DNA of 32,816 bases from an uncultured Mycoplasmatota bacterium (lineage in GTDB: Bacteria > Bacillota_I > Bacilli_A > RF39 > UBA660): the NCBI GenBank assembly GCA_947569245.1, contig CANORV010000011.1, forward strand, positions 1 through 32,816, given 5' to 3'. The notes beneath the pieces are model-generated. The model searched no databases, had not been told where the DNA came from, and was given only the letters and a program-made list of their open reading frames with translations. This document shows, piece by piece, positions 940 to 16,665 of the stretch (its first letter is position 1; every line of letters starts with the position of its first letter). The translations under genes were made by a program, and so were the position numbers.

Positions 940-1689
940 TTACATTTTCTTAACTAGACTTCTTATTGTATCACTACTAGTCATATAATCAGCAAAAAGA
1001 TTTGATAATCTACTAGACTCATCGAATTGATTTAAATCACTATCAATTCTCTTTTTTAATAGTGCTAATTTTTTCTTATTAAATAACAATAAATTTTCAA
1101 TATTTTTCCAAATAACAGTATAACAAATATCTAAATTTTGAATTCTAATTGATTTTTTTATAGTTTCATCTGTTATATTATTTTCATCGATATCTTTTAA
1201 AATTAATGGTATATCAATTTTATAAAAACTATTTTCTCTAGAAATAATGACATAACTACTAGTATCTAAAAAATATAAAGTACCATTGTCTCTTCTATTA
1301 TAAAAAACATCATGCATCAGGCAAAAATTATTTGCAAAAGCTAGGCTATCATTTTCTAGTAGTCTAAAATTATTAACTACTTGCTCTTTTGTAACATCAA
1401 CAGAAGAATGCTTGAATATTTCTCTTTTTTTAATTACTTCATTTGCATACCCTAAATACTTACCATCTACATCTCTAACTATTTTTCGTGGTGGAATAAT
1501 TCTATCTGTTTTAATTGTAGTAAAAAAGCAGTCCTTTTTTTCTTTTTTTTCACGGTCTACATAATCATAATATATTTTTACAGCTTGATCTTTATACCTA
1601 AATACTTTTCCTTCTACACCTGAACCTAAATAATTTTTTAAATTACTTATATCTAGATTAATCTTTTGATTGTCTATATAGCAAATCAT
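940..1689 (-). CDS. Kinase-fold paralog 1, type A (array member)
   Basis: This 249-residue protein shows the hallmarks of a compact protein-kinase/aminoglycoside-phosphotransferase fold: a glycine-rich loop GSGVEGKVF (22-30), an AVKIY lysine (K38), a segment IIPPRKIVRDVDGKYLGY like the hinge region of bacterial kinase-like proteins, a catalytic-loop HD (126-127) with N131 four residues later, and a metal-binding Asp in FLDTSS (D142). It is the last of five tandem paralogs. Its start ATG overlaps the stop of the preceding gene by one base (TAATG), implying translational coupling. It is closest to the paralog at 2466-3134. Its substrate is unknown. With Lys, Asp, Asn and Asp all present it may be active, but the spacing in the catalytic loop differs by one residue from the usual D-x4-N. 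The family assignment is motif-based inference. Confidence 0.75.
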   Translation of the reverse strand: MICYIDNQKINLDISNLKNYLGSGVEGKVFRYKDQAVKIYYDYVDREKKEKKDCFFTTIKTDRIIPPRKIVRDVDGKYLGYANEVIKKREIFKHSSVDVTKEQVVNNFRLLENDSLAFANNFCLMHDVFYNRRDNGTLYFLDTSSYVIISRENSFYKIDIPLILKDIDENNITDETIKKSIRIQNLDICYTVIWKNIENLLLFNKKKLALLKKRIDSDLNQFDESSRLSNLFADYMTSSDTIRSLVKKM

Positions 1690-2414
1690 TATCTTCCCCT
1701 CTTTGTCTTACATAAATCTTTTACATATTCTGAAACACTATCATATCCTACTGTTTCTTTTTCTAACATCTTAACACATCCCAATACTTTTGCCATCTTT
1801 TGAAAATCTGAATACACCTTTCTAGTTAAGCTTTCAGATTCACACACATTAGCAATTTCATCAGAAATTATTTCACCTATTAAGATTTCCAATTCATCAA
1901 AATTATTTTTTTCTATTTTTCTTTTGGTTAAACAATTAGAAAAATCAACGCTAAAACAGCTAACATCAAAAATATTTAAATGGCCATTATCAATCATATT
2001 ATGAACTCCAAAATCTCCAACTATTACCTTTTTTTTACTCAATGTAAATATATCATTTTCTATTTCTTCAATATCAGTAAAAAAGTCCAAAACAGATTTT
2101 TCAAGAATTCTTTTTAACGATTTATTCCTTTTTTGTAATTCCTTTAAAGTTTTTATATAAACGGTTTTATATCCCGAATATAATTTGTTTTCATCATAAA
2201 TAATATCAACAGGTAAAAAGATTCGTTTAGTATTGATATCTATTAGATACTTACAAGAATCTTCATCTATATAATCAGAGTCATCTTTATAATGTATTTT
2301 ATATACAAAACCATTTTTTTCATAACATATTCCTTCTGCTGTTTTATCTTCATTAATATTTCGAATATCTTTTTCATTTAAATCTATTTCTTCCTGATTA
2401 CAATAATATTTCAT
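1689..2414 (-). CDS. Kinase-fold paralog 2, type B (array member)
   Basis: This 241-residue protein belongs to the second subtype in the array. The glycine loop is reduced to AEGICYEKNG, followed by the probable ATP lysine in VYKIHY (K39). The catalytic loop GDFGVHN (133-139) matches the HGDLHxxN pattern of phosphotransferase-type kinases, and the metal Asp sits in NIFD (D150). The C-terminus has a conserved block MLEKETVGYDSVSEYVKDLCKTK shared with the two other type B members. No signal peptide or membrane segment is visible, so the protein is probably cytoplasmic. It overlaps the downstream type A gene by one base. Function and substrate are unknown. The loss of glycines in the loop leaves open a pseudokinase role. 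Confidence 0.75.
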   Translation of the reverse strand: MKYYCNQEEIDLNEKDIRNINEDKTAEGICYEKNGFVYKIHYKDDSDYIDEDSCKYLIDINTKRIFLPVDIIYDENKLYSGYKTVYIKTLKELQKRNKSLKRILEKSVLDFFTDIEEIENDIFTLSKKKVIVGDFGVHNMIDNGHLNIFDVSCFSVDFSNCLTKRKIEKNNFDELEILIGEIISDEIANVCESESLTRKVYSDFQKMAKVLGCVKMLEKETVGYDSVSEYVKDLCKTKRGR

Positions 2415-2465
2415 GAACTTTCACCACCATTTAGGAATATCTTATTAAAACAATTAAAAAATTAC

Positions 2466-3134
2466 TTACTTTCTTAAAATATATTCTTTTATTGTTTCAC
2501 CCTTTTTTAACAAATTATCAAAATTTTCTAAATTAGAAAATAAAAAATTAGTCCTATTTACTTCTTCAATACTAGTAATTTTTTCATTACTATTCTTTAC
2601 TACAAAATTATATAATGCTCTTTTAGTATAAGCTATATTATTACTTAGAATTTTCTCTGTTTGATTATAAAAAACTTCATTACTTTTATCAACATGAATG
2701 TAACTACTAGAGTCAATAATATATAATTTTCCATTATACCTTATATTAAAATCAAGATCATTCATTACAAAATCATTATTACTAATAAGTGGAATATCAT
2801 TTTCCAAAAGTTCATGTATATTTTCACTTAAATCTTCCTTTGTAGCATCTAAAATTGATTTTTCGGAAGACAAATCAATATATTTCATTTTATGACCACA
2901 GTATTTTTGATTAATACCATATATTAAATCTTCAGGTATAATAACAAACTTTGTTTTCATAGTACTAAAAATTCGATCACATTCTTCGTGATTTATATAA
3001 CCCATTCTAATACTTTCTTTATTATATATTTTTATAGCACTATCTTTATATTTATAAACTTTACCTTCTGTTCCTTTACCAATTAATTTAAAAGGATTCA
3101 AAAAAATTTTTTTATTGCCTAAAACATATATCAT
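2466..3134 (-). CDS. Kinase-fold paralog 3, type A (array member)
   Basis: At 222 residues this is the shortest array member, and it has the most canonical glycine-rich loop, GKGTEGKVYKY (19-29). The ATP lysine is in AIKIY (K35), the catalytic loop is NDLDFN (D126, N130), and the metal Asp is in YIIDSSS (D141). The hinge-like segment IIPEDLIYGINQKYCGH matches the other members. The start at 3134 is supported by AAAAGGAG about 7 bases upstream. The 113 bases before it are AT-rich and could hold a weak second promoter, but no clear -35/-10 pair is visible. It resembles the 940-1689 protein more than its direct neighbours, so types A and B alternate in this part of the array. Confidence 0.75.
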   Translation of the reverse strand: MIYVLGNKKIFLNPFKLIGKGTEGKVYKYKDSAIKIYNKESIRMGYINHEECDRIFSTMKTKFVIIPEDLIYGINQKYCGHKMKYIDLSSEKSILDATKEDLSENIHELLENDIPLISNNDFVMNDLDFNIRYNGKLYIIDSSSYIHVDKSNEVFYNQTEKILSNNIAYTKRALYNFVVKNSNEKITSIEEVNRTNFLFSNLENFDNLLKKGETIKEYILRK

Positions 3135-3247
3135 TTTTATCTCCTTTTAATGTAATTAATTTTTATTTTTCTCTTATAATACATTCTTTTATTATTTTAC
3201 TTATAATAATTTATTATTACTAAATCAATTTATCTTTTTATTACTTT

Positions 3248-3970
3248 TTAACGATTACATATTTTCTTATATGTTTTAGAAACATCTTCACAGTACTCTT
3301 TGATACTGTTATATCCTTTTGTTTCTTTTTTTAGCATATTACTAAAACCTATATAAAAAGCCTTCTTATCTAAATAGCTTAGAATCCTTACGAGTTCACA
3401 GCTAGTTGAATCTTTCATTTGTTCTATTATAATATTTCTTATTAATAAATCTATTTCTTTACAATTTCTTTTATTTATTTGTGAATTTGTATATATATCA
3501 CCACAACCAGATACTTTATAATCTCCAGCATCAAAAATATTTATATGACCATTATCAATCATATTATGTATACCAACATCTCCTAATAAAACTTTATTTT
3601 CTTCTAAGATTCTTTTATCATCTTCTATTTCATCAATATCAATAAAGAAATCATTAGTTGATTTTTCAACAATAGGTGTTTCTCCTTCTTTTAATGGCTC
3701 AATGAATGTTGCTTCATAGCCACAATATTTATGGTCTTTGCTATATATAAGATTAGTTGGTAAAAAGATATGCTTAAGATTGATCTTTGTTAACTTTTCA
3801 CAAGCATTTTCTAAGAGATAATCTTTTAAATCATTATAGTAAATTTTATAGACTTTTCCATCTTTTTCATAACAGATACCTTCTTTTGTTTTTACTTTAT
3901 TTTTACTTGATAAATTCGTAAATGATTGGTCAGAAAAATCTAAAACTTTACCATCACAAAAGTATTCCAT
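3248..3970 (-). CDS. Kinase-fold paralog 4, type B (array member)
   Basis: A 240-residue type B paralog. It contains KEGICYEKDG followed by KVYKIYY (lysine K42), the hinge-like IFLPTNLIYSKDHKYCGY, catalytic loop GDVGIHN (130-136), and metal Asp in NIFD (D147). The C-terminal block MLKKETKGYNSIKEY is the same as in the other B members. The N-terminal MEYFCDGKVLDFSD closely matches that of the neighbouring gene at 3987-4730 (MLYFCDGKKLDFND), evidence of recent tandem duplication. Only 16 bases separate the two, so they are surely cotranscribed. No function can be assigned beyond a kinase-like fold. Confidence 0.75.
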   Translation of the reverse strand: MEYFCDGKVLDFSDQSFTNLSSKNKVKTKEGICYEKDGKVYKIYYNDLKDYLLENACEKLTKINLKHIFLPTNLIYSKDHKYCGYEATFIEPLKEGETPIVEKSTNDFFIDIDEIEDDKRILEENKVLLGDVGIHNMIDNGHINIFDAGDYKVSGCGDIYTNSQINKRNCKEIDLLIRNIIIEQMKDSTSCELVRILSYLDKKAFYIGFSNMLKKETKGYNSIKEYCEDVSKTYKKICNR

Positions 3971-3986
3971 TTCTTTTTATCCTTTC

Positions 3987-4730
3987 TTATAACTTTAAAA
4001 TTTTAGTTTTACAAAGATCTTTTGAAAACTGATTTATACTTTCATATCCAGAAGACATCTTTTCTAACATTTCTAAATAACTAAAATTTTTTTTACTAAT
4101 ATTGGCTTGGTTCTTGATATATAAATGGAACTTATATAAATTGCCTAATCCACAAATACTCATAAGTTGACTATTAATAATATCTTTAACTAAAAATTCT
4201 AATTCAGCTTGATTATATTGATATATATCTTTTGACTTCATATCTATTGGATTATATTCATATCTTCCTGGATCAAAAATGTTTATATGGCCATTGTCAA
4301 TCATATTATGAATACCAAAATCATGAACTACAAACTTAACTTCAGATAAAAGGTTCAAATCTTTTTTTATTTGTTGTATATCTTGAAAAAAGATATCAAC
4401 TTCTTTATCAACTATTTTTATATCATTTTCTTTTAATGGTTCAATAAATTCGGTTTTATATCCTGAGTAGTTTCCTTCATCATCCATTATTAATGCTATA
4501 GGTAGAAACATACGTTTTGTTTTAATAAGCTTTAACATCTTACAAGCATTTTCTTGTAGAACAACGGCTATATTTTTTCTAAGTGTTTCTTCATCAAAGT
4601 GAATCTTATACACAAATTTATCCTTTTCATAGCATGTTCCTTCTCCTACTAAAGAAGAATACTCTCTTTCTATTACTTTAAAACTACTATCATTAAAATC
4701 TAATTTTTTTCCATCACAAAAGTATAACAT
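3987..4730 (-). CDS. Kinase-fold paralog 5, type B (first gene of array)
   Basis: This is the promoter-proximal member of the five-gene array (247 residues). It shows GEGTCYEKDK with KFVYKIHF (K42), hinge-like MFLPIALIMDDEGNYSGY, catalytic loop HDFGIHN (H136, D137, N142) and metal Asp in NIFD (D153). HDFGIHN is the nearest of the five to the HGDxxxxN loop of aminoglycoside and choline kinases. The start at 4730 follows GGGGTTGAGGTAA. A strong promoter sits at 4762-4790. The C-terminal block MLEKMSSGYESINQF ends in DLCKT as in the other B proteins. The substrate is unknown. Confidence 0.75.
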   Translation of the reverse strand: MLYFCDGKKLDFNDSSFKVIEREYSSLVGEGTCYEKDKFVYKIHFDEETLRKNIAVVLQENACKMLKLIKTKRMFLPIALIMDDEGNYSGYKTEFIEPLKENDIKIVDKEVDIFFQDIQQIKKDLNLLSEVKFVVHDFGIHNMIDNGHINIFDPGRYEYNPIDMKSKDIYQYNQAELEFLVKDIINSQLMSICGLGNLYKFHLYIKNQANISKKNFSYLEMLEKMSSGYESINQFSKDLCKTKILKL

Positions 4731-13553: not shown

Positions 13554-15137
13554 TTATTCAACTAATTCTAACTCAAATGGATTTTCTTGACTTCCAACAC
13601 CAGATACTATTTTAACATTAGATTTCAAGTATAGTGATGGATGGATATCTATTCCACTATAATGGGCTGAAAAATATAAAGTTCCACCAATACTAACTGT
13701 ATAAACCTTCATGTCTGACGTATTTATTAATGTAGTCATAGTCCATTTTGGGTCACGTGGACTTATGCTATTAATCCAAGAATTTGTACTACAATCATTT
13801 AATCCTGACCCACTAGACCAATCAGACATAGAATTAGAAAGACAAGTTACCCTCATTGTAGTTTCACTTCCACTTGTTGAATAACCATAATCACTTGGAT
13901 ATATAAGTCCTATCTTTCCCTTCCAAGTAGTAGGATTTCCTTCTTTTACATCACTACTACGTTCTTTTTCATAAAATGAACTTGCTAATTTAGATACGTT
14001 TTTTACATCAAAACCTCCTAAATTCCATATTGTATCTGCTATCATTGAAATACTTGCTGTATCTTGAAGACCTGTAGTACTAAAATCACAAGCTGTAGTT
14101 TTTGAATATTGTCTATAATAGCATAATCCCTTTGATTTATTCCAATAAAGACTTCCTCCAACACTTTCTGTTTCATATCCAGGATTTAACAACTTCATTA
14201 CACTAGATCTTGCCCAGTCACTATTATTATCATACAATCCATCCCAGGAATATTCTCCTATTGACTCATTTCTCACAATTTTAATTCTTGCTTCACCTGA
14301 ATCTTCTTCATTTGTTTTCATGTTGTTCATAACTCCAATAATTCTCCATAGTTCATTATTAAATCTAACATAGTTATTTGGATTTGCTCCAATATATCTT
14401 AAATTATGATCAACAGTTTCATCATCTTCTACTATTTCTCCTTCTGTTGCATTATTCTTGATATATGCTAATACTTCTTTACTTATACTTCCAGATGGAT
14501 TATCATCTTCACCTGGTCCTGGTGTTGGATTTGTTCCACCTTCTCCAAGTGCTGTTGTAATTGTTACTTTTGTATTGAAAATTCGATTCATAATTTCATT
14601 ACTTGCTGGAGTATTTTCATCAAGCCATATTCTCAAATAATATGTTTTTTGTTGTTTTGACTCAATTGTTCCAGTTGAAAGCTTATATGAACTACTTGCT
14701 TCTTCCAATGTTTTTTGAGTCGTTTCATATTCACTTAATAAACTAGATGAATTTGTTTCACTAGATTCTTCTAATAACACTCTTATATGTTCATACTTTT
14801 CTAATGTTGTGGTTTGTAGTATTTCCAAATTAATCTGATAACTTGCTTCTTTTTCACATGTATTATCTATGGTGAATTCATATGGTATTAATTCTTTTCC
14901 TTCTGCTTCTGTTAATGGATATGCATTTCCTATATCGATTGCATTTTTATCACTAAAACTTATAGCAAAACAACCAATTGTAAGTCTGTTTTCATCAGTT
15001 TGTTTTAATGTTATTTGCCATAGAGCAAAACTAGTACCAATTACTAGTACTAAAGTTAAAAGTATTAAGGGTATGATTACTTTACTTTTATTTGTAAAGC
15101 TCCCCCCCCCCGACTGTTTAGACATATCTTCTGTCAT
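13554..15137 (-). CDS. SipW-tag-like surface protein with G10 tract (candidate phase-variable)
   Basis: This 527-residue protein is probably surface-attached or secreted. After a Gly-Ser turn comes a membrane/signal segment (about 19-39) ending in GTSFALWQITLKQT, then RLTIGCFAISF. This resembles the SipW-tag start of TasA/camelysin-type proteins. A beta-rich domain follows to about residue 195, then a Pro/Gly linker NPTPGPGEDDNPSG, then a domain beginning YIGANPNNYVRFNNELWRIIGVMNN that recurs in Bacilli surface proteins and ends in ...GSQENPFELELVE. No catalytic motif is seen. The start at 15137 follows GAAGGAGTG. Codons 9-12 contain ten consecutive G residues, and a length change would truncate the protein. 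It has its own promoter (15208-15236) and terminator. No sipW gene lies in the window. Confidence 0.8.
   Translation of the reverse strand: MTEDMSKQSGGGSFTNKSKVIIPLILLTLVLVIGTSFALWQITLKQTDENRLTIGCFAISFSDKNAIDIGNAYPLTEAEGKELIPYEFTIDNTCEKEASYQINLEILQTTTLEKYEHIRVLLEESSETNSSSLLSEYETTQKTLEEASSSYKLSTGTIESKQQKTYYLRIWLDENTPASNEIMNRIFNTKVTITTALGEGGTNPTPGPGEDDNPSGSISKEVLAYIKNNATEGEIVEDDETVDHNLRYIGANPNNYVRFNNELWRIIGVMNNMKTNEEDSGEARIKIVRNESIGEYSWDGLYDNNSDWARSSVMKLLNPGYETESVGGSLYWNKSKGLCYYRQYSKTTACDFSTTGLQDTASISMIADTIWNLGGFDVKNVSKLASSFYEKERSSDVKEGNPTTWKGKIGLIYPSDYGYSTSGSETTMRVTCLSNSMSDWSSGSGLNDCSTNSWINSISPRDPKWTMTTLINTSDMKVYTVSIGGTLYFSAHYSGIDIHPSLYLKSNVKIVSGVGSQENPFELELVE
15102..15111. repeat. Homopolymer C10/G10 inside a coding region
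   Basis: Ten C residues on the plus strand (G10 in the coding strand) encode the Gly-Gly-Gly of the surface protein starting at 15137. With nine G the frame stops about seven codons after the tract (TAA); with eleven G it stops four codons after (TAA). Such a run is very unlikely by chance in this AT-rich DNA and is a typical slippage site. Confidence 0.85.
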
Positions 15138-15207
15138 AAAAAAATCACTCCTTCAACTAAAAAATATAAAAACTGCATGTTACATTTTCCATATTTTTCT
15201 TAAAATA

Positions 15208-15236
15208 ATTATCCCACTTTTTATACTATTTGTAAA
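15208..15236 (-). promoter_or_regulatory. Sigma-A promoter of the G-tract surface gene
   Basis: On the minus strand TTTACA (15231-15236) and GATAAT (15208-15213) are spaced by 17 bases. The leader would be about 60 bases long. Confidence 0.7.
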
Positions 15237-15369: not shown

Positions 15370-16665
15370 CTATGATACTAAGCTTCCCTTTAAAACATTT
15401 GAGTTTTCTGATTTTGTTTCAATCATTTGATCAACTAAGTCAGATGTTTCACTAGTATAGTTTACTGCTATTTGTGAACCATCTGTAACTGCAGCAGCAA
15501 AAAACATATTAGAATATGAAGTAACTTTAGTACTCATTATAGTTATTGTTGTTGTTAGATTATTACATTGATAAAACATATCAAACATATCTGTTACTTT
15601 ACTTGTATTAAAACTACTTAAATCCAAACTGGTTAAACTATTACATTGATAAAACATACCATTCATATCTGTAACTTGACTTGTATCAAAACTACTTAAA
15701 TCAAGACTGCTTAAACTCAAACAAGCACAAAACATACCACTCATATCAATAACATTAGATGTATCAAAATACTCTAGTCCCTCAATACTGGCTAGTTTTA
15801 TAAAATTATAAAATAAATTTGAACTGTCTTCATTTGCTCTTACTCCACCATTTCCTTGTATATAGATAGTATGAGTACTATTATCTTCATTTAACACAAC
15901 ATATGCCATTACTTGTTTTTCTAAATCTTCCTTATCACTTGATATATTAAATGATTCTACTGCTCCTTCTACCTCATGAATATTATCTTCAAAGACAATT
16001 CTAGTTGTTGATGACTTATATTTCCATATTTCTTCTTCATAACTACTAGTTACACTTTGTAGTTTAGCAAGATTTGAATTATGTACAAACTCTCCAGTAA
16101 CAGTTACCTTTCCTTGCCACAAAGCATTCATTACTTCATCTACTGCTTCTGTATCTATATCCATCCATAATCTTAAACTAAATTGCTTCTTTTCTTTATT
16201 ACCAAGTGTTCCTTGATATAACTTATAAGCTGTTGTTGCATCACTAATTACTTTTTCCTCATTTATATGTTTTTCTAGTAATTTATCTAAAAATAATTCA
16301 CTCTCTCCACTTACTAAATTTGCTTTTAAATATTTATCTGCTAAAGTCTTTTCTTCAGTTGATAATGTTTCTAAATTAATTACATAATTAGTATCTGTTG
16401 TACAAATATTTTCTAATATAAATGTATATGGTTCTAATAACTTACCATCTGCATTACTTGTAGGTGTAATATCAGTTATATTAATTGCATCAGTTTCCTC
16501 AGTTAGTGTTAGTTTTAAACATCATGTTGTTATAACATTAGTACTAGATTGCTGTAATGTTATCTGCCATAAGGCATAACTTGTTCCAATTATTATAAAT
16601 AATGAAACTACGATAAACATTGGAATAACTATCTTTTTATTCTTATACCATTTTTCTTTTTTCAT
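15370..16665 (-). pseudogene. SipW-tag-like surface protein with DUF285 repeats, interrupted by TGA
   Basis: From ATG 16665 (ribosome binding site AAGGAG) one frame runs to TAG at 15370, 431 codons, interrupted only by TGA at 16522-16524 (codon 48). The start is MKKEKWYKNKK, then a membrane segment and GTSYALWQITLQQ, closely like the neighbouring protein's GTSFALWQITLKQ. The TGA falls where the neighbour has Gly in TIGC (here TT-stop-C), so a single GGA-to-TGA change explains it. The C-terminal part has three repeats of the DUF285/BspA type (SLDLSSFDTSQVTDMNGMFYQC and variants, about 265-360), found in surface adhesins of Mollicutes and gut Firmicutes. No internal start with a ribosome binding site exists before codon 168. 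It is a recent pseudogene, a read-through gene, or a sequencing error. Confidence 0.75.

Follow-up and report, generated by a model that had tools for sequence, protein, structure and literature searches.

A G10 tract at the beginning of a surface-protein gene

Ten consecutive G residues early in the gene for a membrane-anchored protein raise the question of whether the run is accidental or, as proposed in the initial annotation of this DNA, an on/off contingency locus. In the window, i.e. the whole stretch of 32,816 nt analyzed, the putative slippage switch lies at 15102..15111 on the minus strand (C10 on the plus strand), within an ORF encoding 527 aa (15137..13554, minus strand), where its first G is the last base of codon 9 (TCG) and the remaining nine make up codons 10-12 (GGG GGG GGG). 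The tract was the sole G/C run of at least 7 nt in the entire window; four seven-base matches were observed as against a mean of 0.07 in 100 dinucleotide shuffles, and an extrapolation from run lengths predicted approximately 0.005 runs of at least 10 in a window. Since these counts were far below those observed, a chance origin was rejected, as the annotation had anticipated. GGG accounts for 5% of the glycine codons in the 14 other window ORFs, and the tract has three of them in succession. In silico reading of the alternative frames revealed that a G9 allele meets a stop codon 7 codons past the tract, giving a 19-residue product (MTEDMSKQSGGGALQIKVK), and a G11 allele meets one 4 codons past it, giving a 16-residue product (MTEDMSKQSGGGELYK); a single-G change therefore switches the gene off in either direction, and the early stops claimed beforehand were reproduced.

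The gene (13554..15137, minus strand), which is in frame (ON) in the assembly, is preceded by a ribosome-binding site, AAGGAG (15148..15153, minus strand), read from the sequence 10 nt ahead of the ATG. The best-scoring site of a regional scan was a promoter-like TTTACA-17-GATAAT with TG before it (15208..15236, minus strand), in a region where the number of such sites did not exceed chance. In an AlphaFold model with a mean pLDDT of 80, the protein was predicted to consist of a membrane anchor helix at residues 18-40 (15018..15086), immediately past the tract, and two domains, namely an N-terminal beta domain common to the paralogues (residues 46-198; 14544..15002) and a C-terminal domain representing the variable part of the family (residues 240-527; 13557..14420), all encoded on the minus strand. 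A fold search with the whole model returned partial matches at most, and a PDB sequence search using the N-terminal profile returned no significant match. Directly upstream of the tract gene lies a tract-less paralogue with DUF285/PARCEL repeats (15370..16665, minus strand), which carries an in-frame TGA at 16524-16522. Elsewhere in the window, at 940-4730 on the minus strand, five tandem divergent paralogous ORFs with kinase-like motifs (such as GDFGVHNMI and HDFGIHNMI) were noted.

Homologous tracts in paralogous genes of the same genome

The genome assembly containing the window is AT-rich and comprises 1,399,522 bases in 94 contigs at 72% completeness. It holds 16 G runs of at least 7. Four are G7 and unrelated, none is G8 and the other twelve are G9/G10; of these twelve, 11, none longer than G10, occupy one homologous site in paralogous surface-protein genes, a few codons past the start and just ahead of a conserved (Y/S)FTN motif and a membrane helix. 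The twelfth, a G9 run on contig C38, was set aside because the in-frame ORF around it (L032:6296-7582) is unrelated and carries the run close to its C-terminus, in frame within WVKRGGGSYNTGSESGMFAF and not as a 5' switch; we take this ORF to resemble C-type-lectin-fold or formylglycine-enzyme-like proteins.

Among the 11 tract genes, that of the window alone is in frame. An extra G is required by two genes on contig C5 and by those on C8 and C50, and one G fewer by those on C14, C40, C42, C76, C85 and C19, the last of which was read by eye with a GTG start. Seven OFF genes are visible in full and give frames of 441-573 codons once opened by the gain or loss of one G, and the other three run off contig ends. 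While 17 of the 18 tract-less paralogues inspected were in frame, the same was true of 1 of the 10 tract genes to which an ATG start could be assigned (Fisher p = 1.4e-5), and the tract therefore marks a special class of genes. The notion that only one gene is on at a time was also considered and found no support, as one in frame out of 11 gave p = 0.075 against one third, and 6 of 24 coding tracts sampled were in frame. A profile search located dozens more N-terminal modules elsewhere in the genome. The paralogues have this N-terminal part in common and diverge in sequence beyond it, some having a C-terminal domain with a sub-threshold DUF6273 match and others C-terminal DUF285/PARCEL leucine-rich repeats.

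Maintenance of the OFF genes

For the genes on C14 and C40, both OFF, dN/dS was 0.31 overall; it did not exceed 0.18 in the first 400 residues and was 0.4-0.5 in the final portion. These values, which report past and not present expression, indicate that the OFF genes are maintained. The same pair is mosaic, with near-identical DNA for residues 100-200 and 67% identity around residues 400-500, a pattern that suggests recombination between copies. An intact MutL is encoded by this genome and by most of its relatives, and the idea that the tracts arose because mismatch repair had been lost was therefore rejected; the presence of MutL may reduce slippage rates.

Relationship to TasA and SipW proteins

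The initial annotation had called the window protein SipW-tag-like. Taken formally, this description failed: TIGR04088, the NCBI SipW-tag model, gave no match to the protein at E ≤ 10 and a weak match to 1 of 26 relatives (E 0.034), and the camelysin model PF12389 likewise gave no match to the protein and a weak one to 1 of 16 relatives (E 0.018). In a looser sense it stood. On contig C22 of the same genome (L279:1713-4722), three small proteins with membrane segments are followed by a SipW-type signal peptidase (TIGR02228, E 8.8e-25), and one of the small proteins is homologous to the N-terminal domain of the window protein (E 3e-13; 98% in a profile comparison). As this homologue adjoins the peptidase, TasA/SipW-like is a fair label for the window protein by context, not by formal model. 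This operon, with its three small TasA-like proteins and its SipW-type peptidase, is a likely export system for the window protein family. The best PDB match of the beta domain was the archaeal bundling pilin 7ueg (E 9e-5), with a low TM of 0.33-0.36; this pilin is presumably linked to TasA.

Tracts in related species and across the family

In a second species of the genus (each related species is represented by one genome), three genes carry the tract at the same position and all are OFF, and a fourth copy has an interrupted tract, GGGGGGAGGGA, and is in frame as if locked. In the sister genus g13 (G013), the same proteins have homologues (best E 5e-57), and there the tracts sit in the promoter spacer, TTGACA-Gn-TATCCT. 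Nine of these promoters are near-identical, TTGACAAATAT(G/A)C-Gn-TAT(C/T)CT, with n = 9, 9, 9, 10, 11, 11, 13, 14 and 14 (one G9 run being cut by a contig end), and the tracts yield spacers of 16-21. The tract is thus kept in homologues at differing lengths, G9/G10 among the paralogues and G9-G14 in the g13 promoters, and the occurrence of coding and promoter switch types on one protein family points to selection for switching. The contingency-locus interpretation of the initial annotation, which had also suggested looking for a G tract at the same place in homologues, was well supported: such tracts were present in the second species as well as in ten paralogues, whose frames vary and are intact where the contig continues, and the sister genus has them in its promoters.

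Runs of at least nine G were found in 105 of the 193 genomes sampled from the same GTDB family, at least 10 of them in each of 30 genomes and a maximum of 76 in one genome of 1.3 Mb, although the total of 1033 tracts does not represent independent events, since many tracts per genome are related copies; the other families of the class had 17 such runs over 23 genomes. Positions were read for 181 distinct tracts from 36 genomes, a sample biased to tract-rich genomes. Promoter-like spacers contained 97 of the 181 (against 3.7 when the flanks were shuffled and 1 when the opposite strand was read), 5' coding DNA contained 24 (6 in frame and 18 off), and 35 preceded a gene by no more than 150 nt. 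Of the 127 assignable tract-gene proteins, 121 had a hydrophobic segment among their first 75 residues, as compared with 4 of 23 other window ORFs.

Not every G run of the family need be a length switch, since all 25 sampled tracts of genus g22 were exactly G9. In this genus (G022; L071-L090), approximately 25 copies of caactGGGGGGGGGtgc(a/g)ataca were observed, most of them 30-60 nt ahead of genes for secreted or membrane proteins and with no good -35 at 17 nt; the G9 run may act there as a fixed promoter or activator element, and not as a switch of variable length. Runs of G9-G11 were also seen near the start of pilin-like genes, FTLIELLAVIVI, in L058, L104, L106 and L107 (G031) and in L208, L220, L232, L247 and L248 (G116). 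These genes, of which some G031 copies are in frame and some out, could be a second class of phase-variable surface genes.

Alternative explanations of the G runs

If RNA polymerase or the ribosome slipped on the G run, some full-length protein would be made whatever the frame of the DNA. Every fully visible OFF gene indeed has an intact frame, and polymerase slippage on poly-A is reported to rescue frameshifted genes in Buchnera (quoted in PMC2831843). However, different copies require +1 and -1, the copy with the interrupted tract in the second species is in frame, and sister genera have such tracts in promoter spacers, where frame is irrelevant, and we consider this explanation unlikely. 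It is very improbable that the OFF copies are decaying pseudogenes with the G tract as a functionless leftover hotspot, as the in-frame proportion of 1 in 11 and the stop codon of the tract-less neighbour might lead one to suppose, given the 441-573 open codons behind the tract, the dN/dS of 0.31, and the retention of the tract in the second species and its renewed appearance in homologue promoters. Errors of sequencing or assembly, for example dark-cycle poly-G, might be suspected from a source that resembles a draft metagenome bin and from three tract contigs that stop 26-50 bp past the tract. They can be dismissed with near certainty, because the runs have conserved sequence on either side, at a homologous site common to eleven genes and found again in the assembly of the second species, promoter-like flanks are restricted to one strand (97 vs 1), and the contig breaks come after a repeated N-terminal module.

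Proposed switching mechanism

In our judgement, the G10 tract is very probably a contingency locus of the slipped-strand type and one of at least 11 such switches in the genome. According to the proposed mechanism, replication slippage would add or remove one G in the tract; with G10 the frame would be kept and the surface protein made, and with G9 or G11 a peptide of 16-19 residues would result. All of the at least 11 switches belong to genes of one multigene surface family with differing outer domains and sit in its N-terminal anchor module, so that the cells of one clone would bear different sets of surface proteins. In promoter-spacer tracts on the same class of genes, tract length would set the -35/-10 spacing. 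The sequences show the tracts with their positions and frames, the intact OFF genes, the retention of tracts in related species and the differing lengths among paralogous copies; from these we infer that slippage occurs within one population, that the proteins are exposed at the surface, and that host immunity, phage or attachment exerts the selection. Considering the eleven runs in this genome, mostly off, together with the family-wide runs, this uncultured lineage probably uses DNA slippage to reshuffle its surface. On a wider scale, we lean towards the view that the whole uncultured family runs one of the densest known poly-G repertoires (up to 76 runs of at least 9 G in a 1.3 Mb genome), in which coding and promoter tracts would be interchangeable on a shared TasA/SipW-type anchor module with varied outer domains, producing combinatorial clonal surfaces.

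Comparison with known systems

Cultured pathogens provide the best-known cases of homopolymer phase variation, and among gut commensals the best-known ones are a few G tracts of Bifidobacterium. If lineage-wide switching is true, uncultured small-genome Bacilli/Tenericutes vary their surfaces through this same mutational mechanism, and annotation pipelines will label such tract genes frameshifted or absent. The poly-G phasomes of Neisseria and Campylobacter comprise many G tracts per genome, with coding and promoter-spacer switches. This abundance and both switch types are shared by the present lineage, whereas the proteins and the organisms are unrelated, and switching was measured there and is inferred here from sequence.

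Homopolymers in 5' coding DNA act as switches generally in prokaryotes (PMC2831843), and in Bifidobacterium breve replication slippage at G tracts switches the pili of a gut commensal (PMC9187656). The sortase-dependent pili of B. breve resemble the present case in that a surface gene of a gut commensal has, close to its start, an intragenic G tract of approximately 10; tract length there decides whether two ORFs fuse, and mixed lengths were measured in the population (PMC9187656). B. breve differs in belonging to another phylum and in having two pilus clusters per strain and sortase substrates, while the present genome has eleven paralogues with a TasA/SipW-type anchor and a putative switch. 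The Mycoplasma systems, such as the gsmA G tract of M. agalactiae and the vaa poly-A of M. hominis, likewise place homopolymers in the 5' coding or promoter region of surface genes in small, AT-rich, Bacilli-related genomes (quoted in PMC9187656 and PMC2831843); they involve few loci each, whereas the present lineage has many G tracts per genome and retains MutL. With the TasA/SipW biofilm-fibre system, the window family shares a short N-terminal anchor with a beta domain, and a SipW-type peptidase after three small anchored proteins, but it bears extra C-terminal domains and the G-tract switch. In a literature search of incomplete coverage, poly-G switching was not found described for RF39-like or other uncultured Tenericutes/Bacilli, or for SipW/TasA-type proteins. 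The mechanism is a known one; what appears to be new is the lineage, the protein class, the combination of coding and promoter switches on one protein family, and the scale.
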